The translations under genes were made by a program, and so were the position numbers. The notes beneath the pieces were generated by a model. It had not been told where the DNA came from, did not search any database, and saw only the letters and a program-made list of their open reading frames with translations. A DNA stretch of 28,387 nt, taken from Sistotremastrum niveocremeum HHB9708. Its lineage: Eukaryota; Basidiomycota; Agaricomycetes; Sistotremastrales; Sistotremastraceae. The stretch covers positions 173,656-202,042 of the forward strand of contig KV419439.1 in NCBI GenBank assembly GCA_001630475.1, written 5' to 3'. Below are positions 1 to 22,011 of the stretch, in pieces (position 1 is the stretch's first letter; each line of letters opens with the position of its first letter).

Positions 1-128
1 ACTCAGGTATTACTCAGGTAGGTACCCGTCTTTTGGGAAGTGAGTGGGTATGGCTGGCCAGAATTTCCTCTGAAATACTCATGAGTGGATACTCAGGTGG
101 GGCAGGTATATACTCGTGTTCATCCTTA
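1..128. mobile_element. hAT-like MITE, right end of a copy cut by the window edge
   Basis: These 128 bases match 1784-1911, the right end of the complete element at 1622-1911, at 127 of 128 positions; the single difference is G96 against T1879. The copy ends in the same terminal repeat (TATACTCGTGTTCATCCTTA, 109-128). The left part and left target duplication lie outside the window; if this copy also made an 8-bp duplication, the right one would be GAACCAAA (129-136). It has the same orientation as the 1622-1911 element and sits about 100 bp beyond the EF2 stop codon. The near identity implies very recent movement, or gene conversion between the copies. Confidence 0.85.
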
Positions 129-231
129 GAACCAAATGACAACAGCGATGTATTCAGTAATGCGTTCAACGAGCAGAGGCAATGGCAACACGCTGTAGAC
201 TTCTTGATATTTCCGCACAGTAAAGAGAAAA

Positions 232-3200
232 TTACAGCTTGTCATAGTAATTTTCAAGAGGCGGAATTTCAGGCTAAGATAAGTCAGTAAATATGTCAAA
301 ATTTTGTGGGAAGAACGAACTCTAAGACCCTTGCGGATACGGATATTCTTCACGACCTCTTCGAGTTTGGAACCCTTGTCAAGTGGTGCTAACGAAGAGT
401 AAGTTTTTGTGAGTAAATGAATGTCTGAACCACTCACAGCCTTGCATCAATTCCCAATGATCAAACACACATTGAGGAAAAGCTTGGCCTTGAGTATGCT
501 GACGAAGATCCGCAGAGAAGCCGAAGGACTCCATTACTGGGAGGTAAGCTTTCACCGTTAGCATCGGGGTTCCTGGTCTCTGTTCTTGACTGAAGACTTG
601 TCCACGTCGTCTGTTGAGACAGGAGTAGATGCCACCAATAGCGATCTCGGGGCATTGAATCTCGACAAGATAGACGGGTTCCTGTAATGTGGGTTGTGCG
701 AGCAGAGCGGCCGCGTAGCAGACACGACGGCACGTAGAGATAATTTGACCTCCTCCACGATGGATGGCATCCGCATGGAGCTACAGAGGAATGTTAACTC
801 AGTTCAAGATATTGAGATATGGCACGTACTGTCGCATCGAGAATGTTGAAACGAACACCCCGCATGTTCTCTTCGGCACAGACTCCCCCTTTGGTGGCCC
901 ACTGGAAAGCAGAGACACACGAATCCTTGATCTCGTTCAGGTATTGAACTCCCTTTGTAACATCGACGAGCAAGTTTGCGCCGGAGGCGTCGGGTCCGAA
1001 ACACCAAATCTTCCGGGCATCAGCTAAGGCTTCCAACAAATATAGCCCGTTTAAGGATATCCGCAAGTATACTTGCCAAGGGTACCTGCCTAATACACCA
1101 TAGGCAGGTATGAGATTATCGGCTGGACATTTAGGCAGGTACCTGCCTGCTATTTTTACTAGTAAATAGGGGTTATTTAGGCAAGTATAGGCAAGTAAGT
1201 ACCTGTACTTGCCAAGTACAAGTATGGGATTTTGGCTGAAAAAAACAGGCAGGTACCTGCATGCAGGTACCCAGGTAAGGCAAGTATATATTCGTTGGAG
1301 GCCTTAGCATCAGCAATATCCCAACCATACTCATCTGCAAGAATCCTGGCACGGGCTTTGACGTCGTCCCGAGGACCGACTTTTCCGCTCTCGATATCTT
1401 TGGAAAGTTCTTCGTCCAAGGGCATGGCTTTCGCATAGAGACGATTGTGCTTATTCTGGGATTTCGACAGAGCGACAATTGAAGATTCGGCTCGAACGGT
1501 TTCGCGGTATCCGACTACTGGGTCAGACTTCTTCAAAGGCACTCCAGCGTGTTCTTCTTCGAGATCCTGTAAACCGTTCTCGATGAAAATGTGATCAATG
1601 AGAGGCGAAAAATTTACAGACTAAGGATGAACACGAGTATAGCAAAAAAAAAGGTACCCATGGATAAACCTGAGTAGGTACCTGCCTTTTTCATTTTTTA
1701 CAGGTACCGAGTATTGGCTTTCCCAGAAAAACAGTCAAAAACAGGTATCCATACCTGGGGTACCTGGGTAGAAAGGCCATTTTACTCAGGTATTACTCAG
1801 GTAGGTACCCGTCTTTTGGGAAGTGAGTGGGTATGGCTGGCCAGAATTTCCTCTGAAATACTCATGAGTGGATACTCATGTGGGGCAGGTATATACTCGT
1901 GTTCATCCTTATTACAGACCTTGATACAAATTTCCAGGTGCAGTTCACCAGCACCAGCAACGATGTGCTCGCCACTCTCGTTAGTGATAACCTGGACACA
2001 CGGGTCAGACTTGGAAAGACGCTTCAACCCTTCGACCAATTTGGGCAAATCAGCCGCGTTCTTGACTTCAACGGCAACTTGCACAACGGGAGAAACGGAG
2101 AATTTCATGACTCTCATATTATGTGCCGTTTCAGAGGTAGTGAGAGTTCCGCTCTTGAGCAAGAACTGATCGATGCCGACGAGACCGATGATGTTGCCAG
2201 CCGGACAATCTTCGATAGGCTCGACGTAACGACCCATCATCAGGACCGTCCGCTGAACAGACTTGATGAACAAGTTTTCTTTCATTCCAGGTGCATAGTT
2301 CGGACCCTGTATGCGGATGTTCGGACCGGAGCGAACGGTTCCGGAGAAGACACGACCGAAGGCGTAGAAACGACCTTTATCGGAAGTGGGCACCATCTTC
2401 GAGATGTACACGACCAAAGGACCTTTGGGGTCGCAATCTCGAATGCCGATGGCCGATTCATCGTCCATGGGGCCTTCGTACAGCGTCTCAACGCGATAAC
2501 GCTGAGCTGTGGCGGGAGAAGGCAAGTTGATGACTATCATCTCCAACAGCGAGTCTCCAGCTGGCAAAAAGTTCTTCATGACAACTTTCAGAAGAGCTTT
2601 TCCTTCGAAGTCGCGTTCCTTTTGCGAGAGTGTGATATCGAGCTTCTCGAGCATAGAAGTGATCGACTCTTTCTTGAAATCCATGACGGCGTCAAAGATC
2701 TTGAAGATGGGATCGAGGACGAATGCGTTGAAAGCGCGTTCGAGAGGTTTACCATCGGCATCGGTGCTTTTGGTGGTCCATTTCTTCGTGGTCGGGTTGA
2801 AGAAATTATCGCCCCATAATTTATCCATCATCTTCTCCTTGTCGACACCAAATCGCTTGCTATACCGAGTAGCGAATTGACGGAGAGTGAAGCCCCATCC
2901 ATGAAGACCAGAAGCGAAAGCAACGGTTCCCTTGTCAGGGTAAACCTGGACATCGCCAAGGACGGGGTCTTGATAGGTGGAGATGGTGACGTTCACGGAT
3001 TCGATGGTGCGAGAGAACGATTGGAATAAGTCTTCTTTGGTGACTTGGAGTTCCAATAATGCGCGATCGACTTTGTTGATGACAACGACGGGTTTGACAC
3101 GTTCGCCGAGGGCCTGACGAAGGACTGTCTCGGTCTGGACACAGACACCTTCGACGCAGTCGACAACGACGAGGGCGCCATCGGTGACGCGGAGAGCGGC

Positions 3201-3791
3201 GGTGACCTCGGACGAAAAGTCAACGTGGCCGGGAGAATCGATCAAGTTGATCAAGAACTCGGTACCTGGCGAAAAGCATTTAATACATGTGAGATATTGA
3301 CAGTGAAGAGTGAGCTATAAAGTGCGTACCATTGGTTTTCTGCTTGATAGCAGATAAATCCTCTTTCTCGACTTCGAAGTACATGGAGATAGCGGTAGAC
3401 TTGATGGTGATTCCACGCTCCTTCTCATCTTCTCTCGTGTCCATCCAACGCGTTTCACCGGCTTTCGAAGGTGCAATGATACCCGCTTTGGAAACGAGAG
3501 AGTCGGTGAGAGTCGACTTGCCATGGTCCACTTGATTTTAAATAAGATGAAGGTTACTGTGAAGTATAACGAAGAGGATCACACTGACCATGCGCAATGA
3601 CGCTCATGTTTCGGATGTTGGTTGGGCGATCCATAAGGGCTCGCATTTGATCTGAAGGATTTGGAGGTGATATAAGTCGAGATGTGTTTCAAGAATGTCT
3701 TATGACCACTGACCGACTGTGAAATTACTTCCAGAGACACCATGTCAGCCTTTGGAAAAAATCTGAAGACCGGAAAGATCACTCACACCAT
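232..3791 (-). CDS. EFT2/EF2: Translation elongation factor 2 (eEF2), coding exon interrupted by a MITE
   Basis: GTPase that moves tRNA and mRNA through the ribosome in the cytosol. Coding segments, read on the minus strand: 3791-3787, 3727-3714, 3651-3589, 3530-3330, 3265-1920, 1566-1315, 1024-830, 780-438, 388-321, 273-232. With the insertion at 1025-1306 and one copy of its 8-bp duplication removed, these sum to 2529 nt, 842 aa plus stop, the same length as yeast EF2. Seen: P-loop AHVDHGKST, G3 DSPGHVDF, G4 NKVDR, diphthamide loop [10 protein letters not shown] (His near 699) and the C-terminus NYYDKL. The start is fixed by the very small first exon ATGGT, a layout I recall from fungal EF2 genes. 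As written, translation runs from codon 629 into the element and stops at 1177-1179 (about 672 aa), losing the diphthamide loop and domain V. Identity is certain; function of this copy is not. A single-copy EF2 would be essential, so this may be one nucleus of a dikaryon, a second copy, or an insertion handled by splicing. Confidence 0.95.
1025..1306. mobile_element. hAT-like MITE in an EF2 coding exon
   Basis: A 282-bp element with 20-bp terminal inverted repeats (TAAGGCTTCCAACAAATATA at 1025-1044; TATATTCGTTGGAGGCCTTA at 1287-1306; three mismatches). It is flanked by a perfect 8-bp target duplication GCATCAGC (1017-1024 and 1307-1314). The duplication length and the TAAGG terminus fit the hAT superfamily. 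There is no transposase, so it is non-autonomous. The interior carries several GGTACCTGCC-type palindromic motifs and GGCAAGTA-type repeats, the kind of subterminal repeats that transposases bind. Removing the element and one duplication restores the EF2 reading frame exactly (IADARKIW). Confidence 0.93.
1622..1911. mobile_element. hAT-like MITE in an EF2 intron
   Basis: A 290-bp element with perfect 20-bp terminal inverted repeats (TAAGGATGAACACGAGTATA at 1622-1641, its reverse complement at 1892-1911) and a perfect 8-bp target duplication TTACAGAC (1614-1621 and 1912-1919). On the other strand the duplication reads GTCTGTAA, which fits the nTnnnnAn preference reported for hAT elements. It lies in the EF2 intron 1567-1919; the insertion duplicated the 5' splice-site sequence GTCTGT, and the ancestral intron was 55 nt. 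The interior has GGTACC-centred palindromes like those of the element at 1025-1306, but the terminal repeats differ after the first five bases. No transposase is present. Confidence 0.94.
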
Positions 3792-3860
3792 GGCGATTTA
3801 CTGCTGATACCGAAAGGCGAGAGATTTGAGTAGCGCTCTACGAGGGCATCGGTGCAGAGG

Positions 3861-3867
3861 TTTTATA
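3861..3867 (-). promoter_or_regulatory. TATA box candidate of EF2
   Basis: TATAAAA on the minus strand, about 70 bases upstream of the EF2 start codon, a reasonable place for a strongly expressed fungal housekeeping gene. The start context AATCGCCATGG agrees with a strong initiation site. The motif is visible; its use is inferred. Confidence 0.5.
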
Positions 3868-5015
3868 AGCTCAAGAGATCAATCACATACGGGACCGACG
3901 AGCAACTCCTCGATCAACCAAGTGACTCCTTGAGACAAAGAAGTGTCGGACATATCGGCTCTCCCCCGCGAACTGAGACATCAATGTGCGCTGATGAAAG
4001 CGAACTCAAAATTAAATTGGGTCTCCTCGCCATTTCAGTCGTCCATATATTACACAAAGCATCTCGATCTCTTAGAATGTCTGAGTCCAGTTTTCGTGAG
4101 TCCCCTGTGATTTCTGTGGCCTCTTCGTCTTTTTCCCTCAGTTTGTTGTTCTCACTTTCTTACTACCCCTCCGCTACGAACGGAAACTGACAAACTTCTT
4201 CTCATCCTTTCTGCCGTCAAGCTGTTGGTCTGAGTCAAATGAGTCAAAGTGATGATTAAGTCTGCCGCAGAGTGGATCAAGATGGCAGCGAAATCCAGAC
4301 AATTTAAGCGGCAGGTTGTCATAGAATCGAGTGTTCTGATTGGGCGACCTAAATTCCCACTAGAAGAGTGCCTCTCAGAGGAGTCAAGTTATTGAGCGGA
4401 GACCTCACATATCAATGCGTTGAAAATGTTGGCAACCAAGACCTTGATTGATTGCACAAGACGAACTGAAATCTCTAGAGGCGCGATGAAAGAGTTGATT
4501 TTGGAAACGACCTTATTAATTTAACCGGCATACGGGATTAGCCAATCAGATCGAGGAGCTGAGCCATGAACAATTCGTCAAAGAGATCAGCGCTCAGCTT
4601 GCAAGGAATCAAGGATAACCGAAGGAGCAAGAATGAGGAGGAGACACCAAGGCTTGAGTGACGTAGCGAGGCGATAAAGGGGAAACACCCAAGCATTTAG
4701 ATCATTGATATAGAAGGCTTGAATACATTTAGAAGACGCGAGAGTTTGACTGCCAATGTTCATAGTCACTGGTGCAAAATTGATGGAATATCACATACAA
4801 GAAATCGAAGGAAATCGAAGCACCATTCGCATCCGCCCATCCGGAGTGACTATAGCGTAATTACTGATGCTTGCGATGACCAGAAGCCCATGGGTGGAAA
4901 ACGCAGTTCAATGAACATCAACGAGAAAAAAGAGTGTCGATCGATGCACGTGACGCGTCTTTCTTGACGTCGCTGAGCCCGCTTTCGACGTCCGAGTCAA
5001 AGCGTCCAGCCCATC
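3868..5015. other. Divergent intergenic region between EF2 and TIM50
   Basis: About 1.15 kb between two divergent gene starts. It contains only short open frames without recognisable similarity. Two TGAGTCA motifs (4231-4237 and 4240-4246), nine bases apart, match the bZIP (Gcn4/AP-1) core. The remainder probably holds the promoters and untranslated leaders of both genes. Confidence 0.5.
4947..4971 (+). promoter_or_regulatory. E-box and CRE-like motifs upstream of TIM50
   Basis: CACGTGAC (4947-4954, E-box type bound by bHLH factors such as Cbf1) and TGACGTC (4965-4971, bZIP/CRE core) occur 45-70 bases before the TIM50 start codon. The spacing fits core-proximal control sites; function is inferred only. 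Confidence 0.3.
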
Positions 5016-6942
5016 ATGGCATCTCTTCTCATCAGCAGAAGACTGATATCACGCTCATCGATACGACCATCATCAACTTCCCATGCGCGATGGCTCGCTA
5101 CCAAGCCACCGTCAAAAAATTCTCCAGCAAAAGGCTCGGGCTCATCCTCAAACCCTCCAAAAAGTCAATCGTCAACACCACCTAACGATCCACCACCGCC
5201 ACCAACCCCCACCAATGGAACTGAATCAACAGAGCCATCGACACCGACTCCATCACCATCATCGCTCTCACTAGATTTTTCACCCCTCCCACCCGCTACT
5301 CCTTCATCACTCGACACCGAAGGTCGTACAGGTGCTAAATCCGCCAAAGATAGTCTTTCGAGTATCGAGAAACGGAGGAGGGCGATGAGTAGGATGCTTT
5401 TGGCGTTGATGGGGTTGGGTAGCGTCGCTGGTGTTTTTTATATGGGGAGAGAATGGGAGGACGGTGAGCGGAGGGGGAAGGATGTAAGTTCTTTCGAATT
5501 TGGTCCGAGGTGTAGAGCTGATGAACCGTAGGAGTTGAAGCTTGCTGGACGATGGGAGAGGACGACGACGAGGCTTAGTGAATTGACTGATGTATGTCTT
5601 CCCTCTATCTTCGACTCCAACCCGAATTGCAACTGATCGACTTTATAGGTATTCAGTAAACCACAATGGACAGAACTCCTCCCACCTCCCATGCCTCCAC
5701 CTCATCAAAAACCCTACACGCTCCTCCTCTCAATGGACGATCTCGTCATCACTTCCACATGGGATGTAAGTTCATCACTATCCGTTCGGACGTAGGCTGT
5801 ATGTTGATGAATCGTAGCGCGCAACGGGATGGAGAACGGCTAAAAGACCTGGTATCGATTATTTCCTCGCCTACATGTCCCAATTCTACGAAATCGTAAT
5901 CTTCACCACCCAACCGCACTACGTACGTCCCCCCTCCCCCATTATCCAATCCCAATTCCTCCACTAACAATATGCTATAATACCATGTGATACAGACCGC
6001 CGAACCCGTCCTCATGCAACTCGACAAGTACCAATTCTACATCACCTACCGCCTCTACAAAGAAGCCACCCGTCTCAAAGACGGAAAAGTCGTCAAGGAC
6101 TTATCATACCTAAACCGCGATCTCTCAAAAGTGATCATACTGGATACACATCCCGAACACGTCGAGACGCACCCTGATAACGCTATCGTTATGAATCCTT
6201 GGAAAGGCGATTTTAAGACGGGTAAAGAGCTGATAGGACTGATACCCTTCCTTGAATGTACGTCCTCTCCTCTTTTGTGAGTTGGGGGTGGGAACTGATG
6301 TGGAGTAGCGATTGCGTTTTATAAAACGGAGGATGTGAGGCCTATTTTGAGGGCTTATAAGGGGAAGGATATCGCGGTTGAGTATGCGAAGAAGGAAGCG
6401 GAGCAGAAGGAGAGGTTCTTAGCTGAGTGGAGAGCGAAAGGCGGAGGCCGTAATGCTACGTCTACACTCTCATTCTCATCCCTCTTCGGAGGTCGTGATC
6501 CCCTCGTACGTCCCTCCCCCTCCCTCATCCCCTCCCTTTCAAACCTCGACCGCTACGCGATCCCGATGCGATACTGATACTAATTCGGGAACAGACATCC
6601 CCCTCCCAAACTCTAACAGAGCCCCTAACATACCTCGAACAAGAACGCCGAAAAGCCCAAGCCCAATACCGCGCCGAACAGAAATACATAACCGAGAATC
6701 AAGCAGAGCTCGATAGGACTTTGCAAGAGGATAGAGAGAGACAGATGAAGGAGATGGGTGGGGGGAGTCTTTTTGGGTGGGTTGCTGGGATGACGGGGAT
6801 GGCGCCTCCTGGTCCTGGAGGGGCTCAGCCTGGAGGAGCGGGAGGTGAAGCTCAAGGTGGTGCGAGTGGGGTGAGTGGGAGCGCTGCGAATACGATTGCG
6901 AATGCCAGTGCGGGAGCAGGTGCAGGGAAGGAGAAAGTTTAG
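5016..6942 (+). CDS. TIM50: Mitochondrial import inner membrane translocase subunit TIM50
   Basis: Receptor subunit of the TIM23 complex in the inner mitochondrial membrane; it takes presequence proteins from the TOM complex in the intermembrane space. Exons: 5016-5483, 5532-5591, 5649-5765, 5818-5922, 5996-6257, 6309-6505, 6595-6942, giving 518 aa; all junctions are GT-AG and keep the frame. The N-terminus ([18 protein letters not shown]) is rich in Arg and Ser and lacks acids, a typical presequence. A Pro/Ser/Thr-rich linker follows, then one membrane helix near residues 127-144 ([17 protein letters not shown]) and the FCP1/NIF-like domain from about 199 ([17 protein letters not shown], then [20 protein letters not shown] and [11 protein letters not shown]). 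The first Asp of the phosphatase DxDx(T/V) motif is Ser here, as expected for the non-catalytic TIM50 branch. The C-terminus is a charged coiled stretch and a Gly/Ala-rich tail. The first ATG of the presequence frame was taken as start. Confidence 0.93.
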
Positions 6943-7240
6943 ATGGTATATGTATTCGCATTATTCGACGTCGAGTTATTACTACCACTACTCATTTAAT
7001 CGACTCCATTCCCTCTTCCTTCATCCATCCCGTCCCGTCTCTTTCCTGCTTCTCCGCCTGTTCGACATCCCGCTCGACATCCCATTCGACATTCGACATC
7101 TGCTAATCCAACTTGTCCGATCCATTATCCAAAATCCACCACATAAACCCCAAGAAAAGAAAAGAAAGAAAGAGGGTATTACAGAAAATCAAAGTTAAAA
7201 ATTCAAAGCAAAAGAAAACATGCAAAAGAAGGAAGGGGGA

Positions 7241-10075
7241 TTACTGATCCCGACCGAGAGAATAAACACCGCGATGATTCGGGAATATCTCCTTTAGCGT
7301 CTCCACGTTCAAATTCAATCGATCTACACCCCGTACCACATCCACACAAAATCCCAACCACGCCACGCCACGCCACGCCAACACCCAATCCAAACCGAAC
7401 CGAACAAAACAAACAAACAATTCGTCAGCTCAAATCCCAAGAAGACAAGAGAAGGGGAGGGAGAGGGAGAGGGAGAGGGAGAGAGAAAAGAGGACTTACC
7501 GTCCAAATACCCATCATAATGCAACAACCACAAACACCCATCACTAAAACTCAACCCCATCACACCGCTCGCCTCATCAACCGTCATATGATGTAAATCG
7601 TCGAGGTCGAATACGGAAGGGAGGGGGAAGGATTTTATGGATGCTGTTTGGGACCAGGGAGTTTTCGTGCGGCGGCGAGGATTTCGTCCGAGCCCTTGGG
7701 AGCCGGGGTGGGAGCTGGAGGGGTTGAGTGATGAGGGGAAGGTATTGTTTGAGAGCGGGGAGGGGAAGGAGTGGCCGTTGGAGGTGGGACTTGAGGGGAG
7801 GTTCGAGTGGGATGAACCATTCCCGTTGAGACGCGTCGAAAAATCAAGTTCATCGATATCCATCTCTACATCTCCATCCCCATCTCCATCTTTCCCCCAC
7901 TCCTCCCTCCCTTGTCCTCCTCCTCCTCCTCCCTGTCCCGGTCCTGGGCCCTGTTGAGAAGACACAGGCGACACAGGCGACGAAGAAGCGATGAGTTCTT
8001 CAGGTGTCGGATCGTCAGGTGCGTTAGGGATACGGGGGACCGTACAGAGACACATCCTCCGTCCTCCTTTCTTCCTCCCCCTACTCCCTTGCCCAGTCCC
8101 ATTTCCTCTCCCATTTCCTCTCCCTCTCCCCCCACTGCTCCCACTGCTCCCGGCTCCATGACTACCGCCATAGCTACCGGTATCCGCATCCTCATACGAC
8201 CTCAGATTAGGGTCATATTCAATCCATACCACCGCTTTTGCTTCTCCGAAAAATATGGGGTATGGGTCTCGTCCAGGGAAAGAGAATAATGACATTCGGC
8301 GAGGGGGGAGCCAAGTGCGGTATACGGGTGTTCCGAGGAATGGGACGGGGAGGTGATGGTGGGACATTGATACGAGGACTGTGGGGGGTGGGGGATCTTC
8401 TCCATCCCCATTTGCTCCGTCAAGGTCTTGGCCTTGACCTTCGGCGTGGCCGTTCCCGTTGGGGTGAAGAAGAGGGGGATTGGCATGGCCGTTCGCGGGA
8501 GGATGAGGTGCGTTAGGAAGATTCGGAGGATTGAGAGGATTGGGTTGAGGTTCCGGCACCCGCCAATAGCTAACGACGCTCATCTGTCGTTCCCTCATCT
8601 CCTCCCCTTTACAAGTCTCCCATTTCCTACTTCTCTGACTAACCACAAGCTCTCCTCTCCCCCCACTTCCTCCTCCCGCGGCACCTCCTGCCCCATTTCC
8701 TTGTCCTCCCCCCTCTCCTGCTGCACCAGGGTCGCCTCCGGCTCCTGCGTCGCCCGCCCAGTTTATCCGTTCATCAACAAAATTCAAATACTTCGGAGCC
8801 GGAGCCTGTACCGCCAATTCCGACCCAGGAGGGAGAGATAATGCTTCGGTGATGAGTGTGAGGGGGAAATTGTATACTTGGGATTGAGTGGGTGAGGGGA
8901 TCCATAGTGCTAGGTAGGGGCCTGCGAGGTTCGCGTGATATCTTGCTTTAGGCTACACACCAATGAGCCATCAATTCCATATTTGAAAGGGAGCTCCCTC
9001 CTCCTTGCAGAGTCGGGCCTCCCTACGGTCGGCGACTTACCGCGGGAAGATCAGTTCTCAACGTCCCCATTCTCGAATTCCGCCAATCGAGGATATAGAA
9101 CGATAAAGCGCCGTCGTCTTCGACTCCGATACTGATAACGAGATCTTCGGTAAGGGTTAGATCGGCGAGTTGTCGTGCCATTTGGAAATTTGCGTAATGT
9201 TTGAAGGTGCCACTTGGGCGAGTGGGATCGGGGCCGAATTCGAAGCGGACGAGTTCGTATTCTACTAGGCCGGCTCTAGGACTGATCAGCATCAGCGTAG
9301 CGGTACCTATCCATTTAAAAGTGGACGTACTCTGTAATTCCTTGGTGAAAAACAAACATGATAGCAGCTCCCTTCTCCATAATCCGCCATTGCAAAACCC
9401 GCTTATTATCCCCCGAATAAGGCCACGACTCCAAAATAACCTGCATCTGAATATCCGAAATCGTAAGCTTACTAATCCCCTCCCTCTCATACCACTCCGT
9501 CGTCACCAAATACCTACTCCCCGGACATATCAAATAACTTATATCCCCCTCCCTCTTATGGGCACGAGGATGAAAAGCTGTTATTTTGCGTAAGAGGGGT
9601 TGAGGAGCTACTTCCCAATTGTAGTGCACGCGTGCGGCGTGGTGTAGGGATTTCATGAGTTTGAGGGTGCCGTGGTGGATTTGGGGGTTGTATGCTAGGT
9701 CGGGGAGGTTGTCGGGTGGTTCGATTGGGATGGGGCGGAGGGAGGAGAGGTCTTCGGCGAGGATGCGCCAGGTTGTTTTATCGGATGCGAAGGCGCATAT
9801 CGCTCTATTCACCTACAATCTCGTTAGCTCAACTTTTCATATCATAGATGTCAGAGGGAAGAATAGATGGAGGATGGAAGGAACGATGGGCGAAAAGGAC
9901 GCAGCATCGAGAGCGAACGTAAGCATAGGAGAAGGAAGAGTTGACGTACGAGACGGAGAGTGAAGATATCGAATACGTCGAGATACTTTGTGAGATATAT
10001 GAATAACTCAAAAGGCCAGGTATCGAGGCCAAGTGCTCGAGTCGTTAGATGCGATGGGAGGATATCAACGTCCAT
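7241..10075 (-). CDS. F-box domain protein, Agaricomycete type
   Basis: Probable substrate-recognition subunit of an SCF ubiquitin ligase. Exons on the minus strand: 10075-9950, 9812-9331, 9275-9041, 8952-7500, 7323-7241, giving 792 aa with all junctions in frame. The F-box lies at about residues 19-65 (TWPFELFIYLTKYLDVFDIF, then LRLVNRAICAFASDKTTWR). A long beta-rich region follows, as in the many mushroom F-box proteins of this layout; no substrate can be named. The fourth exon contains a low-complexity insert of several hundred residues (Gly/Ala stretches, Asn-Gly and Ser-Pro runs, acidic DGDGDVEMDIDELDF). The conserved-looking end (LNVETLKEIFPNHRGVYSL) is encoded by the last exon. Introns 1 and 4 (137 and 176 nt) are longer than the others. 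It is convergent with TIM50; the two stops are about 300 bp apart. Confidence 0.85.
7358..7380. repeat. Tandem CCACG repeat in an F-box gene intron
   Basis: Four copies of the 5-bp unit CCACG plus a partial copy, inside the last intron (7324-7499) of the F-box gene. Confidence 0.8.
7453..7490. repeat. GGGAGA-type microsatellite in an F-box gene intron
   Basis: A purine tract with period 6 (GGGAGA units). On the coding strand it is a pyrimidine tract that begins just after the 5' splice site GTAAGTCC of the last intron. Together with the CCACG repeat it explains why this intron is 176 nt long. Confidence 0.8.
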
Positions 10076-11574
10076 CGTCAGTTTCGGCGAAGGGACCGAT
10101 ATGTCCGCTTCCTCCTCTTGACTCCTGCTTGCTCCCTCTGATTTTGCGATTCGCTCTTACATTCTCTTTGATTGAGCGATCTGGGTGCTCTGGATGTCTT
10201 GTGTCTGTTCTGGTTGTTGATGGTCTTGTTCCACCTCTATCGGCGCTTTTTGTGTGATGAATGTTGGATTGTCTCAGATGTGTTTCATGATCTGCTCGAT
10301 TGTTCGAGGCATTCATCCTCCATTCACTCTTTGACATGCGCGTTCGATCGATCGCTCCTTTCGATTCTCATAACCAGCATCCTCGCAATCTCCCAGTGAG
10401 AAGCCGCTCGCTTTATCTGAAAGATTTCGCCCGATGCCTGGATCGGCAACGCTGAGTACAGTGCGCAATTACACTTGTCTTCTCTTCGCGCCTCGCACAA
10501 TGACCAGCAGGTCAACTATCGCGCTCATCCAGGCACCACCAGCCGCTCTCCTGCAATGTCTCACATCCCCCGCGCTTATCATATTTTACTGCTACAATCA
10601 TACATCCGGGCTATAGCCCTGCATTGCGCTCCCTCTGCGCGCCGACAGCAGTCGGCACGGTGTCTAGCCTTGCTGTTGCTAGCACTGTCCACCCGCTCAT
10701 CGGAGAGGCCAACTCTCGGGTGATTGATGCCACTGAGCCGAGAGCTAACGCCTGTCTCACTCCGATTGGGTTCATTCGAGGATGCTGGGGATCCTCACGC
10801 GCGCCATTATTTATATGCGCTGCTGCGCTGCATCTCGCATAACGTTCTCCTGCTTGCGATTGTTTTTTGTATCTTCCTTTGTATCTTCTTCGGGATACCT
10901 TTCCTCACCAAGGATTTTCCCATCGGGTTTGCCTTGGAAGGTTTTAACGGTCCCACTTGTTATTTAATATGGTTTCCTCGTTCTTTTTTCTGAGCAGGCT
11001 TCCCATCCATCTCTTTCCGCTGGTTGATCACAACTCGTGGCGAATGAGCACCGAAGTTCTTGAATCATCGTATATTTGCTTTGGATAAGGAAACAATAAG
11101 GCCACTGGTGGCGCAACCGTGGCACCGCGGCGCACTTTTCTGGTGCTTTGGTGCTGCCATAGTCATGTGTTCAATGTTACCATTGAGGGACTAACTCCGA
11201 ACCAATGCCACGCATATTGAACTCCAAAAATATCAATGGAAAATATTCAAGAAACGCTGCCTATTGAACTGCATATCTCGAGTCCCAATGGTGTGTAGTA
11301 AAAAATCTCTATAGGCTTCAGTAAGTCCTCGTACTTTCAGCTTCGAGTTCGATCACTGTTGATCAGCGATGCTCTCATATCTCCGTTAAATCCGTGTGCG
11401 ATCCTGTCACCTTGCGTACGCCTTACTTGCTCCTGAACGTTATGATGCGCGAGCAGCAGCCCCTTCTTGTCAGGCAAGGATGCCACTTCAACATACTTAT
11501 GAATCTTTAGCCCTTAACCATGAATCGCTCGTTCACCTCCCCCTCCACATTCGCCGTTCACTCCTCGCTCAGCC
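10076..11574. other. Intergenic region between F-box gene and DUF6535 pseudogene
   Basis: About 1.5 kb with only short open frames and no recognised protein. It includes the divergent promoters of the two flanking genes. Visible small structures are a perfect 12-bp palindrome GGGCTATAGCCC (10608-10619) and a hairpin GCCGAC-AGCA-GTCGGC (10641-10656). A pyrimidine-rich stretch precedes the ATG at 11575. Confidence 0.5.
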
Positions 11575-14500
11575 ATGTCCGTTCCCATCCTTCCATCATC
11601 CTCGTCAGAGCAACCTCCGAATCCTCAAACCGATGTCGATCTCCACTCGATGACAAGTTTGCTGACGGGCCAGTTCAGCAAGCTCATCGCAACTGTTGAG
11701 AAGCTGAACGTGACCATGGAAGGACAAAAATCAACGATGGACGAAGTGAAGAATACACTCGTCAATCACGGCAAGAAATTCGACATTCTCACAAGAGATG
11801 CCGAGAAGAGTGAGTCATTTCCCCCATCCAAAATACTAAAGAACTCAAGCGTATGATGTAGACGATCTGCCATACGACGAAAAGGATTTAGACGACGAAA
11901 TCACATGTGCTGCTTTGTACGAGCTCATTCTGGCGAAGACGAAGGAAAAGACGGACGAATGGAACGGGACGATCGACGTCACGTTGATCTTCGTAAGCTC
12001 AATCATTGTCTACGGACAGTAGGCTGATTCAAATCCGTCGCATTGATAGATTGCTTTATTTTCTGCGGTACTCACTGCGTTCCTCGTCCCTGCGACCCAA
12101 GCCCTTCTGCCCAATTCCAACGCCGCCGGTAACTCAATCTCATCATAGAGTCCTCCACCAGTCCCTCCTCGCTCCGACCAGGCTGTTTGTGCGCTCTATT
12201 ACCTTGCGTTAATCACTGCCGCGAGTGCAGTTAATCTATCAATTCCGTTTGGCTCGATTCTGACTTCAGTCCAGATCGTAGTAGTGTTGTGTGCCCTAAG
12301 TCGACAATGGGTGCGCAGGTTGACTCTAAAGCCAGAGGGGTCAAACTGGAAAGAAAGGGTCCTCTGGCATATCGGGAGAATGGAACGAGCGGAAGGGTGG
12401 ATCAAACCCCTCATGGAGATCCAATATCGACTCCTTCTGCTCTCCATTGGCGTCTTCATGACCGGCCTACTGTACCAGCTGTAGAATCTTTCGCACTCGT
12501 TCAATGGAGAAGCCACTATTCTGCTGGTGACCTGGGCATGCGGAGTCATTCTGGCTTCGGGTATCGCGGTTATCATGATCGCTACGACATATCACGCGGT
12601 ACGATATGAGGGCTCGGTCTTTGAGGGATTGATCAGCCGAATGATTGTTGGGGAGACTAGCCCTGGCATATCCCATAAAACTGATTGCCGGAGGGAAGTG
12701 GCTCGGGCAGTGCATCGTGTCAGCAGGACGGTTGGTCGGGCGGTCTGTAGCATCTGGAGGAAAATGGATTGGGAGGTACTTGGCATCCGGAGGAAAGTGG
12801 CTTGGGCCATCCTTCACCTCCAGAGCAAAGTGGATCGGGCAGTCCATCGTATCCGGAGGAGACCACATCAGACGCTTCAGCGCATCCGGAGGGAATCGTA
12901 TTGGATCTTTCATCGTATTCGGAGGGAAACGCATTGGAGATGCCATCCTTCTCCTATTGGCCCTTGTATACGTTGTTGTATACGGAGGGTTCCACTTGGC
13001 CATCACAGCTTTCTATTCCTTGATATACCTGGGGCCGCGCCTTCGAGAGCTTGATCTCGTCGTTGTTGCGCAGCGGGCGATGGTAATGATCACTTTTAGC
13101 AGCATTTTGGATCAACTCCGGATGTCGCGGTGGCCAACTGGAACGTGGGCAACTAGAAGTCAAGAGCTCTGGCTGAAAATACTGAAACTCCATGCCGTGT
13201 TGACAGTAATAGGCAAGATGGTGATCAGTCCGCGCCTCAAGGAAATTTTGCCCACAATGGTGGTTGTAGTGGTGATACTGTTGCAGCCGGTTGTGTGGTT
13301 GATGTGGACACTGGGAATGGCGTTGGAATGGACAAGGGATCAGCGAGTTCACCTTGAATGCAATTCCATGACAATGCTGATGGAAGTCTATCTGGAGCTG
13401 ATGGCGGAAACAAGCGAGCCCGGAATATTGGAACGCACTACAGCGTCATTTTCGCTCTCGCAGTGGGTGAGATATGGGGGTGGAACAATGGATGAATTGT
13501 GGACGGTTCGAACCCGGCTGATGGCGAGTCATACTTCCTTTCGCGTTAGGGAGACTATGAACAGGCAGTTCGCTCGGTTGAGCTTGTGGTTTTCTCAGAG
13601 ACAGCGAGAGCCAGAGGAGGTCAGGAGCGGCAGAGCAAGAGAAGACCAAGCCCGAGAGAAAAATGAAGAGGTCAGAGTCATTGAATTGACGAAATTCCTT
13701 GTCGGACAACGGACAGACGAAATCTCTCGCCATTTCGCTCCCACGCGGAAAAACTGCACTGAGATTTTGAATCTCCTTTCTCTCCCGTTCGACGAATTCA
13801 TCGCCAAGTGTCTCTGCGACCGCAACATCGACGTGGGAAATCACCGAAAGATCTTCCATTACTCTGTCGCTCATTGCCTCAATCTTCTTCGCGTGGGCAA
13901 ATCCCATGACGTCGCACGCATCCTTTCCCACGTCGATCTCTTTTCCGCTGTCAGATCCTTCGTCCTCGTGGATAACTACTATTCCCCCTACGATCGTGTG
14001 GTCAAGCCGATCATCGGCGATCGCAGGGCTGAAGCTCTTCGCTTCCTCGCCGAATTCCTCTCAACTCGTCGTGATTGGTCCGATGTCGATTCCGGCGGTG
14101 CAGCTGCTGTCTTTCTGATCGCTGCTGGCTCTCCCCCTCAATTCACCTCTGACATCGACCTTTCCCCCATCATCGGACACATCGGTCGACATCCTTCATG
14201 GAAGAATTGGCGCGAAGCCAGCGACACCTTTATTGAATATCTCATGCAGTGCGACATCTCGGCGTTGTCGGAGCGTAACGGAGTCCAGGAGTCCCTTCAG
14301 CGTTGCGTTGATCGGAGTTTCCGTGACAAAGATGGAGTTTTATGCAGTTCCAGTGAGGAAACTCGCCTCGCTGCTGAGACTCTCTTGGATCGTACGTCTT
14401 CCTTTCACATTTCCCAACCTTATCTAACATTTGACCAGAACACCAAGCTCTGTTCACTCCGCCATCTTCTCCTTCTCGCCATTCAGCATCTATAAACGAC

Positions 14501-14756
14501 GCGGAAGATATATCTCGGCTCTCTGACCAGAGTCCGTCTCCCGATATCTCAGATCTGGACCAGGAACCCTCCCGACGTCGCCTCAACCTCTGAACCTGAC
14601 GACCCACTTGAGACGCACATCCCTTCCATTGATACTACGACCATCCTTGCAGCAGATATTCGACTGCGGAGTGAAGGCCATGAGATTATTGACATGAGCA
14701 TGCCGCCCGAACCTTCGGATGTCCTGCACGAGTCGGATAAATCGGGCTACAGCTAG
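11575..14756 (+). pseudogene. DUF6535-type membrane protein gene, copy 1, decayed
   Basis: Homologous to the DUF6535 proteins of basidiomycetes (function unknown, several membrane helices). Exons 11575-11809, 11862-11992 and from 12050; a GC-AG intron at 12221-12274; a later intron 14394-14438. Seen: a heptad-like N-terminal helix (SMTSLLTGQFSKLIATVEKL), the family core AKTKEKTDEWNGTIDVTLIF with membrane helices after it, then SRQWVRRLTLKP, ERAEGWIKPLMEI and HAVRYEGSVFEGLISRMIVG. Damage: TAG at 12146-12148; TAG at 12482-12484 where the family has Trp (LYQLWNLS); and a shift of reading frame between about 12630 and 12690. After that the frame stays open to 14394 and encodes eight 11-residue repeats, a membrane segment and a helical C-terminal domain. 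The end is uncertain: TGA at 14591 in the spliced frame, while a coding-looking frame runs on to TAG at 14754. An alternative is a shorter gene starting at ATG 12645. Confidence 0.75.
12690..12953 (+). repeat. Eight tandem 33-bp units encoding 11-residue repeats
   Basis: Eight consecutive 33-bp units in the open 3' frame of DUF6535 copy 1. Examples of units are GGKWLGQCIVS, GGKWIGRYLAS, GGKWLGPSFTS, RAKWIGQSIVS and GGKRIGDAILL; the pattern is G-G-K-(W/R)-(I/L)-G followed by a short variable part ending mostly in S. Differences between units at Gly and Ile/Leu codons are often in the third base, which supports this as the coding frame. The last unit runs straight into a hydrophobic membrane segment (LLLALVYVVVYGG). 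Confidence 0.8.
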
Positions 14757-17290
14757 CCAAGTACGTTGATCAAAGGAGTCAACGATGGACTTGAATTCCA
14801 GGCATTCTGTATTCGTTCCTTTAAATCATAATCACGACTGGGATGAATCTCTTTGGTGGTATTCTGGGCTTCACACCAATTATTGCTTCAAATCTACGCT
14901 CCAATCCATGTTTTGCTCTCAAAGCCAGTACATCGTGAGCAAATCTTGACATCCAGGACCATAGAAACATGGAGGAAGCAGCCAAGCCCAAATCGGTGCA
15001 AGCCGTACTTTGAAAGTCGTGTTACAGTGCCGGAGCATGTAGGGCGAGCTCGAACAAAAGCCTCAAGGCGAGAAGAGCACCGGACCATAGTGTTGGATAT
15101 GAGTAGATCTCCTGAGATAGAAAAAATGGTGTCCAAAGTCGCCTCAGAATTCAGTCTAGCTGCGAAACACAATGCTTGTCTTGGCGCTCCTGCAAAATTT
15201 GGGGGTCTGGATAAGGAAGACGAAACATATTGATCGGCGAAGCCGCAGTTGGAGAGGCAGGTACAACAGAGCACGTAAAGAGGACTGAATTGAGTGATAG
15301 TGGAAGCGAGGAAATAAGAGCGTCTGTGAGGCTGATGCGATTGAGCGTCCGGTATAAAAGTGTCCGATAGCACAATCTGGCTTAGATCTCAACGGAGTAT
15401 TTTCTGATATCACAGCACATCTGATAACGAACGCCATTGATTAGACTTTGAGATCAACATTTGAAGCGAAACAGAAGGACGCACCAGGAGCAAACATTAC
15501 TCTTCTCCCTCTTCCATCCCCAAGTTTCACACCTCTTTCTACACCATCTTCATCGATTCATGAGCAGATCACATTTGCAATCCAGATTCGCGTGGTCCAT
15601 GAAGGCCAGATCCGGGAGATGTTCAATAACGGCGTGAACGATCTCAAACCGGAAAGCAAAATTAGACGGGCAGCAGAGGAAAGAAGATCATTGACAGTCA
15701 AGATATCATCGAGGATGGAGAAGACGAGACTCTGATATCAGCGAAGTATAAGGATGAAGATACGTCCACGTCGCGCATCTCAGACATTGCCATTAAAGGT
15801 CGAGCAAGCCACGAAATTATGTCTGAATTTGGGCTTACGTATCAGGAATGGTCTTCATCCGAGTAGTAAGAGAGAAGCATTGAAAGCTTTGAGCCTCGAG
15901 CACGATGTCATTCAGCCGATCTTGATAATTTTCAATATCCTGCGCTTTTGGTTTTTTGATGACGGCAGATTCAGAGAACCAAAGCCACTTATTGAGCCAA
16001 TTCATGAGTCAACTGTCTCGCGATAGGAGGGCGTAGATTTATCTCTGAATCGACAGTCTCATAAGAGGGGATGATCACCATGAAGCGCGGCGAGATCACC
16101 AGAAGCAGAAATCACTCAGAGAAAAGAGACCAGGATACCGCTTACGTCAGCAACCCTCTGCCTTCAACGACTCGCACTGGTCATTCTACGCTCTGGTTAT
16201 TTGAAACCTTGGCAGAGATCTGTTGCGGACAGTCATGGCTCTTCGACGAGCTAGGAATGGGATCCGAGACGTCTGTGATGATTGGTGAGTCCATATTTTC
16301 TAAGCGTGCCACTTTTTCCTCATGATTCGTGTCCTAGCTGTCATCGTCTGTAACCCATATCCCATCTATTCTTGAGTTTGGGATCGCTTCTACTGCCTCG
16401 GGATCTCCAATGGCTTGCAAGAGTGGTCTTGGTGCCCTGACCTCACGCGTCGTCGCCATGCTCGAGGCCACGACATCAGTCGAGAAAAATTCAAAATTCC
16501 ATTGTGGCAGCAATTCGTCAGGAAGGCGATTCTCCCTACTCATGAACGGTCAGCAGACTATCTATGAGCGTTTCTGTATCTGTCCATCGCAGCTGTATGA
16601 TTGTCTCAGTCTCTCGAAAATCGGCGCAGTGACGTGATCGAGCGAGAATGATACGCCGACGAATAAGGTCTGATTCGAAGGCATAAGGAACCCGATCATG
16701 CGTGCCATCCACCTCTTTATGGACTGGTGAGTGCACTCTTGCTCTCTTGATGCTGACTCAAAAATTAACACGCTGTCAAACTAGTAAGCGTTCTCAACTA
16801 CGTCTCGGGGCTCGAACATCGTGTTTAGACCGGGGTAGTGAACGAATAACGGATTGGATGTACGTGCATCTTACACATGCGCTCACTATATCCCGCTAAT
16901 GGGAATACACTGAAGTCGTCGCTGGGTCCCGACCAAGGCCCCATTGAAGCCCACTCGTCCGAAGCCTTTGAAATGACAGGATCATCAAATGCATCTTGTT
17001 GCGGAGCTCACTAAGAGGCTCCTTCCGATCTATCAAATTTGCGGGCCTAGATCCACCCACGAGCCCAACGACCATACTCTGGCATTCGACGATCGAGACA
17101 GGCAAAGAAGTGATGATGTGAAATCCGGACCTTCGCTGTATGTGAGACATGTTCGGGATCGTTTTCACGGGGGTAAGTCAACTCGGAGTCAAGAGATCAT
17201 ATATTGACACTGATTGATGATCGGCCGTTGAAAGTGCAGGAGCTTCTCTTCACCGATTCAAGCCCTCGGAATCAAAACACGCGTTGTTCT
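14757..17290. other. Unrecognised region downstream of DUF6535 copy 1
   Basis: About 2.5 kb with open frames of at most about 130 codons and no recognised family. The more coding-like pieces on the plus strand are 15448-15735, 16071-16290 (ending at a possible GTGAGT donor at 16285) and a stretch read through 16340-16637 (includes SILEFGIASTASGSPMACKS). These could be exons of an unknown gene or relics; I could not chain them into a model. Confidence 0.35.
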
Positions 17291-17303
17291 TACTCCCTCG
17301 ATA

Positions 17304-18300
17304 ATTCCGATCATAGCACTACGAAGACCGGCATCGTCTGAGAAACCGCCCAGTCTATCCGTCTGCGACCGTTTTCGACATACATACTGTGCTTCGTTAT
17401 ATTGTCGTTGGCTGCGCTGCTTTCACAGGACTATCAAGACCTTACAGTCCCACCCGACATCTTTGTGCCCGGATTGTATTCCGCACTACGTCGCACGCCT
17501 GATTTCAGGAGCAATATATTAAGAACAGAGAAGCTCGACAATGATGCTCGTGCATTACTGTTACAAAGGGATGTCATTCTCGTTCGCGCAACGCAAAAGA
17601 AACATGCTACAATGAAATACCTCCTTCATTTCATCTCATCGCATGTCAAGTGTCTCCAGATGCATTGAGGAAGCCGATGTCACACCAAGTCCTGAGGTAC
17701 AACAGATGAAGATCGTACAACTCTGGCAAGACTTCAGCACGGAAGATCCAGTCTAACAGCGTGTTCTTGGAATGGTGCCATCCAGGATTCGAGGGACCAT
17801 GCTGAGACCACAAGGCACGAATAGCGGGAGAAAATATTTGGTAGGAAATTACTTATGACGTTCCTGAGCTGGAAACTTCCCAGGAATAGAAACCCGATTT
17901 GTCGAACCTGATCGTCGAAAGAAGGTAGACGAGTTGAATGCGTAAATAATGTTGAATCTTGACAGAGCAATTCGTATCGCAAGCCAGCGGGAGCAAAATG
18001 AGCGCCAGCACAGCCATAGCATTACGTCAGATTCAGGACCAAGGCCCAGAGGCGCCCAGCGGTCTTGAACGAGAATATTGAGTGCTCCTCCAAATTCAGG
18101 TTGATTTCGACCGAAAAGGAACGAAGATCGACAAAAACAGACCATAGAGATCAACAAGATGTCAATCGGTAGATCATCCTTGCAAAATGACGTCGCCGTT
18201 GCTAAATTGAAGAAAGATCAGTCCAAAAAGGGAATGAAATGTACCTGGAATGAATATGGCATGAGCGTTAGAAGCATGTCAACAAGATGCACGCACCGCA
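17304..18300. repeat. Segmental duplicate, upstream copy
   Basis: Diverged copy of 22012-22690, in the same orientation. Anchors: ATTCCGATCATAGCA with the following bases (17304-17329 against 22012-22037, one mismatch in 26), a 24-bp identical block (17767-17790 against 22370-22393), and TTCGACATACAT plus several further short blocks between them. The copies differ by several indels. The upstream copy holds an open frame at 17402-17668 (includes QDYQDLTVPPDIFVPGLYSA) that is broken in the other copy. No protein family recognised. Confidence 0.75.
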
Positions 18301-18380
18301 CAGCTCGATCTCTCGTCGGGACTTGAATCCTCCTTGTCTCAAACCACCACCATCCCCCTCGTTCCTCTCTGTTGTCCGCC

Positions 18381-19058
18381 ATGTCTGAGTCGTCGCCTCC
18401 TTGGTCGCCTCCAGAGCCCATCCCGGAGTCTTCACGAAGAAACGCGGACGATAACACGTCGACGATAGCTTTACTCACAGATCAGTTTAGCGCTTTGTTA
18501 GGCGCTGTGAACGCGCTGAATGCCACCATGAACGGCGTCAAGAGCACGTTAATCGACCATGGCACGAAATTCGACGTCTTGATAAGGGATGCATTGAAGA
18601 GTGAGTCATCGACGTGACGCATTGTGATATCAGACTTGATTGACGGCGACGCTAGATGACCAACCTTATGATGAGAAGGCATTAGATGACGAATCGACGT
18701 GTCTGGCCTTGTACGATATGGTGGTGGCGAAAACGAAGGAGAAAGCGGAGGAGTGGAATGGAACGATTGATGTTACGCTTATATTCGTGAGTCAATCTAG
18801 ATCGTCGTGATTAATGACAATGGTTGCTCACAATCTGGACCATTTAAAATATCATAGATCGCTCTCTTCTCTGCCGTACTCACAGCTTTCTTGGTCCCTG
18901 CAACACAAACTCTGCTTCCCAGCTCGACAGAGTCATCCAGTCCTGATTCAAACTCCAATTCCACTTCAACTCCAACTCTCCCTCCTCCCCCAGCTCGATC
19001 CGATGAAATTGTGTGCGCTTTATATTACTTGTCCCTGATCACCGCTGTGAGTCCTTAA
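18381..19058 (+). CDS. DUF6535-type protein, copy 2, truncated after exon 3
   Basis: Paralogue of the gene at 11575, with the same intron positions. Exons 18381-18600, 18656-18786 and 18858-19046 encode 180 aa: a Ser/Pro N-terminus, an amphipathic helix (LLTDQFSALLGAVNALNATM), the family core (VVAKTKEKAEEWNGTIDVTL), a first membrane helix, a Ser/Thr/Pro linker, and the start of the second helix (SDEIVCALYYLSLITA). A good donor GTGAGT follows at 19047, exactly where copy 1 has its next intron, but I found no continuation (the RQWVRR...AEGW block) in the following 600 bp. Without splicing, translation ends at TAA 19056-19058. The frame so far is undamaged, unlike copy 1. Probably a 3'-truncated copy; a short expressed protein cannot be excluded. 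Confidence 0.7.
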
Positions 19059-19609
19059 AGACATCGCGAGTGGATCTTGCATCTCTCCGTACTTGGATGA
19101 AGATTTTCGAATTTATAAACCGGCAAGCATCGTCGGATTCGACGAGGCGGCTAAAGCATATAAATTCCCCGTTCACTTCCGGACCGGGGGTGTAGCAAGA
19201 TTGAAGGTTCTGATGTGCGTATATCACGGATTCTTGTTGGTTGAAGCAGAAGCGAGCCAAGTTTCGCGTCGACTCAAACCCGATTCTCAAATCGCCTGCT
19301 GCTGAAAGCCTTAGATCGATTCCCTCTTGCTCTCTGTGATTCTCGGCAGGAAGCTCTGCCCCTCCGAACTTGGAAGTTGTGCCTCTCAAACAATCTGCTT
19401 TGACCACGGAATCCCCTCTGACCTCAAAGACCGCGTTCCGGAGCCAAACCTTGAACCATCGGACATCAAGTCATTCGAAGACTCCAAGAGGATTTGTCTT
19501 GGGACATAATCTTCATCCTGCCAAGAGTCCAAGACTGCCACTTTTCAATTCCGAGAAGTTTCAAAACGGTCTGTCATATTTTGGTCGCGAACACATGCCA
19601 CGATACTGA
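19059..19609. other. Unrecognised sequence after DUF6535 copy 2
   Basis: Contains a 70-codon plus frame (19093-19305, includes IVGFDEAAKAYKFPVHF) and a 122-codon minus frame (19039-19407). Neither matches a family I know. This is where the missing two thirds of DUF6535 copy 2 would be expected. Confidence 0.4.
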
Positions 19610-20390
19610 TTCACAACAGATGTATTTGCGCCAAGGGAAGTTTTAGCGACGCTATTTGATGCAAGTCGTCAATCACGCTGGTATTCATTTCTTGAAATTT
19701 TCAGCAATGCCAGAGCGATCCGCAAGTGCGATTTCGGACCTTATAATTACGATGTCAAAGTTAGACTACTTTCACCGAACTGTGAAACATAGGGTTGTAA
19801 AATATTACGAGTTGTAGTATGAAATACGAAAATCGTCCTTCTCGTGCGAGAGCGACCTACATCCTTGACAGTGATTGCGAGCTCAATTGATTATATTTTA
19901 AATTAAAATTTGTAGCGTACATGCGTATTCAAAATATCTTCACGATGGCACCTTTCCGATAGATTTTACATGCGTCCTCGTCGTTTGAGCCCGCATATAC
20001 TGCATTTTTGGCCCCATCCGAAATCCGGTTTTAAACTCCGCGCCAGCTGTTTTCGAGCCTCCAAAATTCATGTTTGCCAGCGATAGCGGACTCAAAACTT
20101 CATTTAAATTCTTATAACTAATTACACGACATATTGTAAGGTATATTATGAGGTCAGACCCGTTACGCGCATTTTTCCTGCCCCAGAAACCGTTTGACTG
20201 TGTGATCGCCGATTTCGAGGCTCAGGTTGGGTTAGGTAGGGTTAGGTTTGAAACCCCGCCCGCACGTCTGTGACAGTGATTGCGGGCTCAAACATCAAAT
20301 AAAATTCAACAGATTAATCCTATAGACTCTAATCATACTCTATATACTGCTCAATGCATCTCGCTGTGATAAACCGCCCACAACTCTGAG
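19610..20390. repeat. AT-rich island without long open frames
   Basis: About 780 bp with visibly higher AT content and no open frame of 60 codons. Internal structure: a 21-bp direct repeat with one mismatch (19866-19886 and 20271-20291, core TGACAGTGATTGCG); a 12-bp perfect inverted repeat TTTGAGCCCGCA (19984-19995) with its complement at 20281-20292; and a telomere-like run GGGTTAGGTAGGGTTAGG (20229-20246). It looks like an old transposon or other repeat; no clear terminal repeats with target duplications were found. Confidence 0.5.
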
Positions 20391-20639
20391 TGATTGCCTG
20401 TCGTCTCTCTCGGCAACTTCCGAAATGGCTGTACGGCCAGCGATTTCGGCAACTTCCTCACTTGCCTTGGCCTTTGTCGTTGCTTCGTCGTTCACGCAAC
20501 GTTCATGGTCAAAATTCAAGCTTGGCTTTCAGATCCTATCATCGTCGACACTTGTCGTGACCTCCCCACATTCGAGTCGGTTGCCATCACACACCCTGTG
20601 GCCTTGCAATTGCTATCAAGACAGTATTGGACAGTATCC

Positions 20640-20786
20640 GTAAGTACTTGCCATGGTAGAAGATAAACGCTCCATAATGCTTCCACATTGAACAGCTGCT
20701 TGTCAGATCTTCTGATGTGAGATGAATAGAGAGGACGCGGAGAAGTAGCTGTGACTGTCAAGAAGGTGTATGAGCGCAATATCAGG
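20640..20786 (+). repeat. Repeat family L1, copy a
   Basis: First of three diverged copies, in the same orientation (others at 25987-26138 and 26473-26609). All begin with GT(A/C/G)AGTACTT(G/A)C followed by ATGG(T/C)AG(A/G)A, and contain a block near GAGACGACG/GAGAAGACG and an end ATATCAGG or TTTCAGG. The start looks like an intron 5' splice site, so the unit may be an intron with the following exon of a duplicated gene. Confidence 0.65.
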
Positions 20787-21341
20787 TGCGCTATCTACCT
20801 TCTGCTCTCATCCATCGCTTATCGATTCTCTCTTTCCGACTGTCGTGTCTCCATCATGTTTCTGTATGCGATCTCGCCCTTCACCCACGTATTACAGCAG
20901 CATCTTGAAGTGTGCCTTCCTTCTTCAATTAGGCCTTTGCTTCGCCGAACATCGCGCGCAATCTCACCATCCGGTCCAATCGATTCCTTGGAATCTTGTT
21001 GTCAAGCCGCGTCGTCAAATCAAGCTGCACGTACATTGTCATGCCATCACTGCCCCGCATTGCCCACTCCGTGTTCATTCTCCATCCTCATCGCATCGCG
21101 ATATCAAGACCATTACTCTCCTTACCTCACTCCCTTTCATTCTATTCCCACACCGCTCTATCCTCTTCGTGTTCGAACACTGGATCGCCACCGTCTCCTC
21201 GCCACGACTTTCGCTTCGGACTGCTATCGAGGTCTTGTCTTATATCCTCGACCTCTGTCTTTGTAGTCCGTTAGCAGGTGCAATCTCCTGAGGGATTTTT
21301 CATTGTCCGAATACTGATGGCTTCTCTTTCGTGGTCTTCAG

Positions 21342-21540
21342 ATATCTGTTCAAGGGATTGCGAGACCCACGGAAGCAGAAATCCAGGCGAAGTTGGCCGA
21401 ATTTGCAGGGTTTGGATCATCATGATCAGTATCCGCCGCATGTACGTTTACGCTCGTTCTATGATCTTGAAGATCCTCTAATTGATCTTCGGCGTTCGTT
21501 TTGACTACTTCCCTTTGTAGTCGATGTCTCCTCTTCCATT
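21342..21540 (+). pseudogene. Relic of an unknown duplicated gene, copy a (segments L2 and L3)
   Basis: Homologous to 26963-27150. It follows a CAG acceptor (21339-21341) and reads ISVQGIARPTEAEIQAKLAE, then, after a frame change near 21415, DQYPPHVRLRSFYDLEDPL, a TGA near 21502, then PFVVDVSSSI (21511-21540). The last segment differs from the other copy at 3 of 30 bases, all in third codon positions. Family not recognised. The frame change and stop suggest that this copy is dead. Confidence 0.5.
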
Positions 21541-22011
21541 CATGTGACTACCATTGATATCTTCCACAGATATCATCATTGCCGCCATTGTCAACTGAAC
21601 AAGACCCCATCATATTGCTTGCGCGTTCTGTGGATTGGACACATCAAATTACTGCCATCCCTACAATCTTTGACTCAACAACATCTCGACATCTATGCTC
21701 GCGTGATCATGTCCTTGTCATCTGGCCCCAAAGATTTATTCAGACACCGGTAAGCACTCCACCTTGTCCAATTCTCTCCAACATTACATTCCTCACTCAC
21801 AGCTTCTGCCAGCTCACTGCGCATCTCTCAGTTTTCGCGATGTCTGGATCGCAAGACACATTTAGTCGAAGCGGATTTCTCATTACGTCTTGTCTCCCGG
21901 TGCGACATCTTGCAGTTTACAGTCAGTATCATTCTTCGAACAGAAAATCGCTTCCTGACGCACTTCTATCCGCTTTAGATTTCATGGGTAACAGACGATT
22001 TGCAGAAGATC

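Follow-up and report, generated by a model that had tools for sequence, protein, structure and literature searches.

The EF2 (eEF2) gene in a 28,387-nucleotide stretch of contig KV419439.1 of Sistotremastrum niveocremeum HHB9708 (positions 173,656 to 202,042; hereafter the window) has very probably been inactivated by a recently active hAT-type MITE, which inserted into its sixth exon and turned one of two EF2 genes, a dispensable duplicate, into an incipient pseudogene. The intact partner lies on another contig of the same genome. The pair gives a clear view of gene death at its outset, in which an old and well-kept duplicate of an essential translation factor is cut by a very young transposon while its sister remains intact.

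Results

Structure of the window EF2 gene and of the insertion

The EF2 paralogue occupies positions 232..3791 of the window on the reverse strand and comprises nine exons, all read on that strand: exon 1 (3791-3787), exon 2 (3727-3714), exon 3 (3651-3589), exon 4 (3530-3330), the large exon 5 (3265-1920), exon 6 (1566-830), which the MITE interrupts, exon 7 (780-438), exon 8 (388-321) and exon 9 (273-232). All eight introns have GT..AG ends, and the coding pieces add up to 842 codons, 629 before the insertion and 213 after it, with codon 630 split. Besides the insertion, the coding sequence shows no further frame or splice lesion, and the downstream piece still encodes the diphthamide residue, histidine 699. 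The first-pass annotation had described the other exons, splice sites and key motifs as intact. The introns and the codon count agree with that description, but two qualifications are needed: two conserved residues of switch I are changed (F56W and T57M), and a second, different MITE lies in intron 5, with the 5' splice site falling inside its 8-bp duplication.

The exon 6 element is a 282-bp non-autonomous sequence (1025..1306, forward strand) with imperfect 20-bp terminal inverted repeats, which start with TAAGG and agree at 18 of their first 20 positions; its termini carry TAAGGCYTCCAACRAATATA ends. It is flanked by a perfectly matching 8-bp target-site duplication, GCATCAGC, at 1017..1024 and 1307..1314. 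Since the ends of the element are fixed independently by 20 other genomic copies, such a match would be expected by chance with a probability of about 4^-8. The reading frame enters the element, continues for 43 codons and meets a stop codon at 1179-1177, after 672 aa and ahead of the diphthamide histidine, so that the diphthamide loop and domain V are missing from the product. The frame is thus broken in the manner of a pseudogene. Every number tested in the initial description of the insertion (a 282-bp element, a perfect 8-bp duplication, a split codon 630) was borne out, as was its prediction of a protein ending near residue 672.

The exon 6 element family

A search of the 34.7-Mb assembly (111 contigs), in which 40 of 93 candidates were scored and whose counts are lower bounds, identified at least 22 near-full copies of the element at 97-100% identity, the window copy included. 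The window copy and 20 of the 21 others were aligned, the remaining copy being that in L068 (6118-6399). All 21 aligned copies are 282 bp long and lie within 1-6 substitutions of the majority consensus; the window copy differs from it at three positions, one of them private. Perfect 8-bp duplications flank 18 of the 21 (window included; the copies in L034, L041 and L051 are without one) and also the L068 copy, which brings the figure to 19 of 22 copies examined. Counted by eye in the 18 duplications, T occupies position 2 in 9 and A occupies position 7 in 10, a composition that leans towards Ac-type targets. The longest frame across the empty site reaches at least 150 aa for 9 of the 18 copies with duplications, against 32% of 2000 random window sites, a raw excess over a control drawn from one 28-kb window.

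The account of hAT MITEs in PMC3517528 names 8-bp duplications and short terminal repeats as the features that place MITEs in this superfamily, and gives a range of 5-27 bp for hAT terminal inverted repeats. The exon 6 element has an 8-bp duplication and terminal repeats within that range; it is short (282 bp), has no coding capacity and occurs in at least 22 near-identical copies. Judged by this anatomy it is a hAT-type MITE. The youth of the family, the 8-bp duplications and the short terminal repeats all agree with the earlier reading of a recent hAT-like insertion in an EF2 exon. The window copy itself appears very young, with one private substitution in 282 bp set against a dS of 0.66 between the two EF2 genes, a rough comparison in which the neutral rate is not calibrated.

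Mobilisation would presumably have depended on a hAT transposase. The genome contains 21 matches to the hAT dimer domain; among the 10 of these loci examined with 1.5-kb flanks, none is bracketed by the ends of the exon 6 element, and the L052 locus has one matching end, but on the wrong side for enclosing the domain. Four further elements, longer or of another kind, share these terminal repeats and are each flanked by a perfect 8-bp duplication: L066 132-2309 (2178 bp), L067 108-1938 (1831 bp), L064 158-963 (806 bp) and L068 3839-4138 (300 bp). As candidates for an autonomous parent, the 806-, 1831- and 2178-bp elements contain none of the genome's 21 dimer-domain matches.

One family copy (L044 2001-2282) lies within a retrotransposon-like frame: the sequence to one side of it matches an endonuclease, and that to the other a reverse transcriptase. 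A Pfam scan of ten frames flanking family copies returned matches at just the two beside this copy.

An intact second EF2 gene

A protein search with the large exon of the window gene identified one other EF2, on contig C14, with 92% identity over 453 residues. The C14 gene encodes 842 aa in nine exons that match those of the window copy, has GT..AG introns and no internal stop, and aligns end to end and gap-free with yeast eEF2 (PDB 1n0u). The other matches were weaker relatives, which we take to be Snu114-, Ria1- and EF-G-like proteins, or copies of the second MITE family, recovered because the query ran into the intron 5 element. A domain IV profile search returned C14, C46 (the window gene) and, on C43, a third protein in two pieces, which the large-exon protein search matched just weakly, and a DNA search of the assembly with exon 6 returned the same two EF2 places, C46 and C14, and no others.

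The broken frame had been presented as a puzzle in a normally essential gene, with a second EF2 copy among the ways out, and a search of the genome for another locus had been proposed; the intact gene on C14 is that copy. A second intact EF2 had also been named, together with silence of the window gene, as what would make this an ordinary pseudogene, and the C14 gene supplies the first half of that case. With a second intact EF2 in the same genome the puzzle dissolves, and the cell need not depend on the window copy.

Age and history of the EF2 pair

Before the insertion the two proteins share 581 of 629 residues; after it, counting the stop, 194 of 214 positions are identical. For these two parts, the Nei-Gojobori method (NG86) gives dN/dS values of 0.056 and 0.063 at dS 0.66 and 0.67, and YN00 gives 0.069 and 0.074 at dS 0.58, each pairwise dN/dS being an average over both EF2 branches. 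Low dN/dS at high dS indicates that strong constraint has long acted on the pair, in the part before the insertion as in the part after it.

The copies have nonetheless not evolved alike. When residue changes were polarised with yeast, 30 fell on the window branch against 14 on the C14 branch (chi2 5.82), in a test with this single outgroup that leaves 24 further differences not assignable to a branch; for the part after the insertion, the corresponding 8 against 4 changes are not significant (chi2 1.33). The window copy scores below the C14 copy with each of the 22 PDB EF2 sequences common to the lists of both large-exon searches, which were taken at one cut-off and consist of related sequences rather than independent tests. 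The effective codon number, for the same two parts, is 48.7 and 54.0 in the window copy against 39.5 and 45.9 in the C14 copy. The window copy hence combines weaker codon bias with about twice as many assignable protein changes. Because an intact, more codon-biased and slower-evolving EF2 is available on another contig, we infer that the window copy is dispensable.

Outside EF2 (beyond window positions 187-3867), no homology was found between the 26 kb around the C14 gene and the window plus the 10 kb that precede it, a stretch that includes 2501 N. Since homology in these regions ends with EF2, the pair looks like old duplicates of a single gene, introns included. The same absence opposes a segmental or whole-genome duplication as its source. 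Uncollapsed haplotypes are likewise rejected, as a dS of 0.66 is far above the allelic range and homology is again restricted to EF2. A processed (retro-)pseudogene is ruled out, the window copy keeping eight introns that match those of C14.

The second MITE family and other features of the window

Intron 5 measures 353 nt, against 47-64 nt for the other introns of the gene, and contains a member of a second MITE family (1622..1911, forward strand) with terminal repeats TAAGGATGAACACGAGTATA (20 of 20 positions alike). Its own 8-bp duplication, GTCTGTAA on the gene strand, lies at 1614-1621 and 1912-1919; because this duplication contains the 5' splice site of intron 5, the same 8 donor bases stand on each side of the element. 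The family has at least 18 near-full copies in the genome at 93-100%, counting the one in intron 5. A truncated copy (1..128, forward strand) lies beyond the 3' end of EF2 and abuts the 2501-base run of N (L028 7456-9956) that directly precedes the window. Elsewhere in the window, EF2 aside, 16 frames reach 150 aa or more; the ten of them that were scanned (157-616 aa, positions 4977-22046) gave no match to Pfam at an E value of 0.001.

Switch I substitutions

Codons 56-57 of the window gene (exon 4; 3442..3447, reverse strand, counted from the exon coordinates) encode W and M in place of the F and T found in the C14 copy and in yeast. Window position 57 presumably corresponds to Thr56 of the mammalian protein, counted without the first Met. 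With T57 replaced by M, the window paralogue is without the conserved regulatory threonine of EF2; a study that substituted the EF2 threonine in yeast reportedly found methionine to be tolerated in this place. The threonine was already gone from the broken paralogue when the MITE inserted. Thr56 of mammalian eEF2 is described as its most observed phosphosite, and as inhibitory, in PMC11660736, and PMC10449493 gives Rck2 as the eEF2 kinase of yeast.

Splice sites around the insertion

Removal of the element at the RNA level had been put forward as another way in which EF2 might still be made. GT-AG pairs were enumerated for introns of at least 40 bases, with the search for donors starting 150 bases ahead of the first duplication and that for acceptors ending 160 bases past the second, and no pair in this enumeration removes exactly 290 bases. 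Exact removal requires the two intron ends to occupy equivalent positions in the two copies of the duplication (gene-strand sequence GCTGATGC), and none of the nine junctions there, inspected by eye, has GT..AG, GC..AG or AT..AC ends; GC-AG and AT-AC introns were checked in this way at the exact junctions alone. When other lengths are allowed, 114 GT-AG pairs leave exon 6 open, five of them within two residues of the exact junction. The donors of these five score between -0.7 and 1.1. The 16 native donors of both EF2 copies score 5.8-8.8, values that are somewhat flattered since their own introns served to build the scoring model. The best of the 29 donors in the insertion region reaches 3.8, under the weakest native donor. 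With no exact pair and every donor below all native ones, the proposal of RNA-level removal is not upheld.

Discussion

In the reading that we favour, a recently active hAT-type MITE would have transposed into exon 6 of the window EF2, and by breaking its frame would have inactivated the gene and set it on the path to a pseudogene. Any transcript would encode the 672-aa protein, which lacks the diphthamide loop and domain V. With three introns downstream of its early stop, such a transcript should be degraded by nonsense-mediated decay. The MITE knock-out of an EF2 paralogue is ordinary in kind. Its practical lesson is that an apparently broken essential gene calls for a search for a paralogue before RNA repair is invoked. 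As the low dN/dS implies that the window copy was long useful, its loss may carry a cost, or may be confined to the sequenced isolate or nucleus.

Such confinement leads to the alternative that survives best, namely that the insertion is polymorphic, with an empty and working allele retained in one nucleus or isolate while the assembly displays the filled one. This is possible, though on balance unlikely, and it is compatible with the favoured explanation; heterozygosity between nuclei had been among the ways out first offered. The very young element family, a coding sequence otherwise free of frame and splice lesions and the low dN/dS of the pair are all in keeping with it. Against it, the exon 6 search of the assembly found matches on C46 and C14 only and no empty allele of the site, although a collapsed assembly would hide one.

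A more speculative proposal, to which we give little credence, is that the window gene was a specialised EF2, strongly constrained in its GTPase and diphthamide motifs, which stress kinases could not switch off once the inhibitory phosphorylation threonine had been lost (T57M, next to F56W); a MITE burst would have just removed it from this isolate, and other nuclei or strains would still use it. Should the T57M paralogue prove functional in other strains, it would constitute a natural EF2 without the main inhibitory phosphosite.

It is very improbable that the element is spliced out as an introner-like intron and that EF2 is still made. Introners that carry both duplications and terminal repeats have been described, and some recruit their splice sites from the flanks (PMC9860276); the 114 GT-AG pairs described above would, moreover, keep exon 6 open. 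Yet none of the 114 removes exactly 290 bases, the nine duplication junctions are without splice ends, and both the near-exact donors and the best regional donor score below the native range. The exon 6 element is not bounded by splice sites that would remove it. No sign of intron-making by its family was seen, splice sites having been examined at EF2 alone.

A functional truncated product, extending from the GTPase domain to part of domain IV and acting for instance as a decoy, is equally hard to credit: the frame is open to residue 672, but the insertion is very recent and decay of the transcript is to be expected from the early stop upstream of three introns. Misplacement of the element into the gene by the assembly is scarcely believable, for although the window starts at a 2501-base run of N, a misjoin would not yield the exact 8-bp duplication that is typical of the family (19 of 22 copies examined).

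Literature searches on a MITE in an EF2 exon, on basidiomycete hAT MITEs and on Agaricomycete MITEs gave nothing on point among the matches listed, and the inactivation that we propose for the window EF2 is best placed beside three known systems. Like the introners described in PMC9860276, the exon 6 element is a non-autonomous DNA element with a duplication and terminal repeats located within an exon; unlike them, it is without splice sites for exact removal and breaks the frame. The Drosophila hAT MITEs Mar and Vege, as reported in PMC3517528, share with it 8-bp duplications, short terminal repeats, a lack of coding capacity and many copies, but are longer, at 610 and 884 bp against 282 bp, and differ also in that here no related transposase was found among the 10 of 21 hAT loci examined with flanks. 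With respect to the host gene, the closest parallel is yeast, where EFT1 and EFT2 likewise both encode eEF2 and a double mutant of the two is described as inviable (PMC3585130); the two copies in S. niveocremeum differ from the yeast pair in being old, with about 8% of residues different, and in that one of them is broken.
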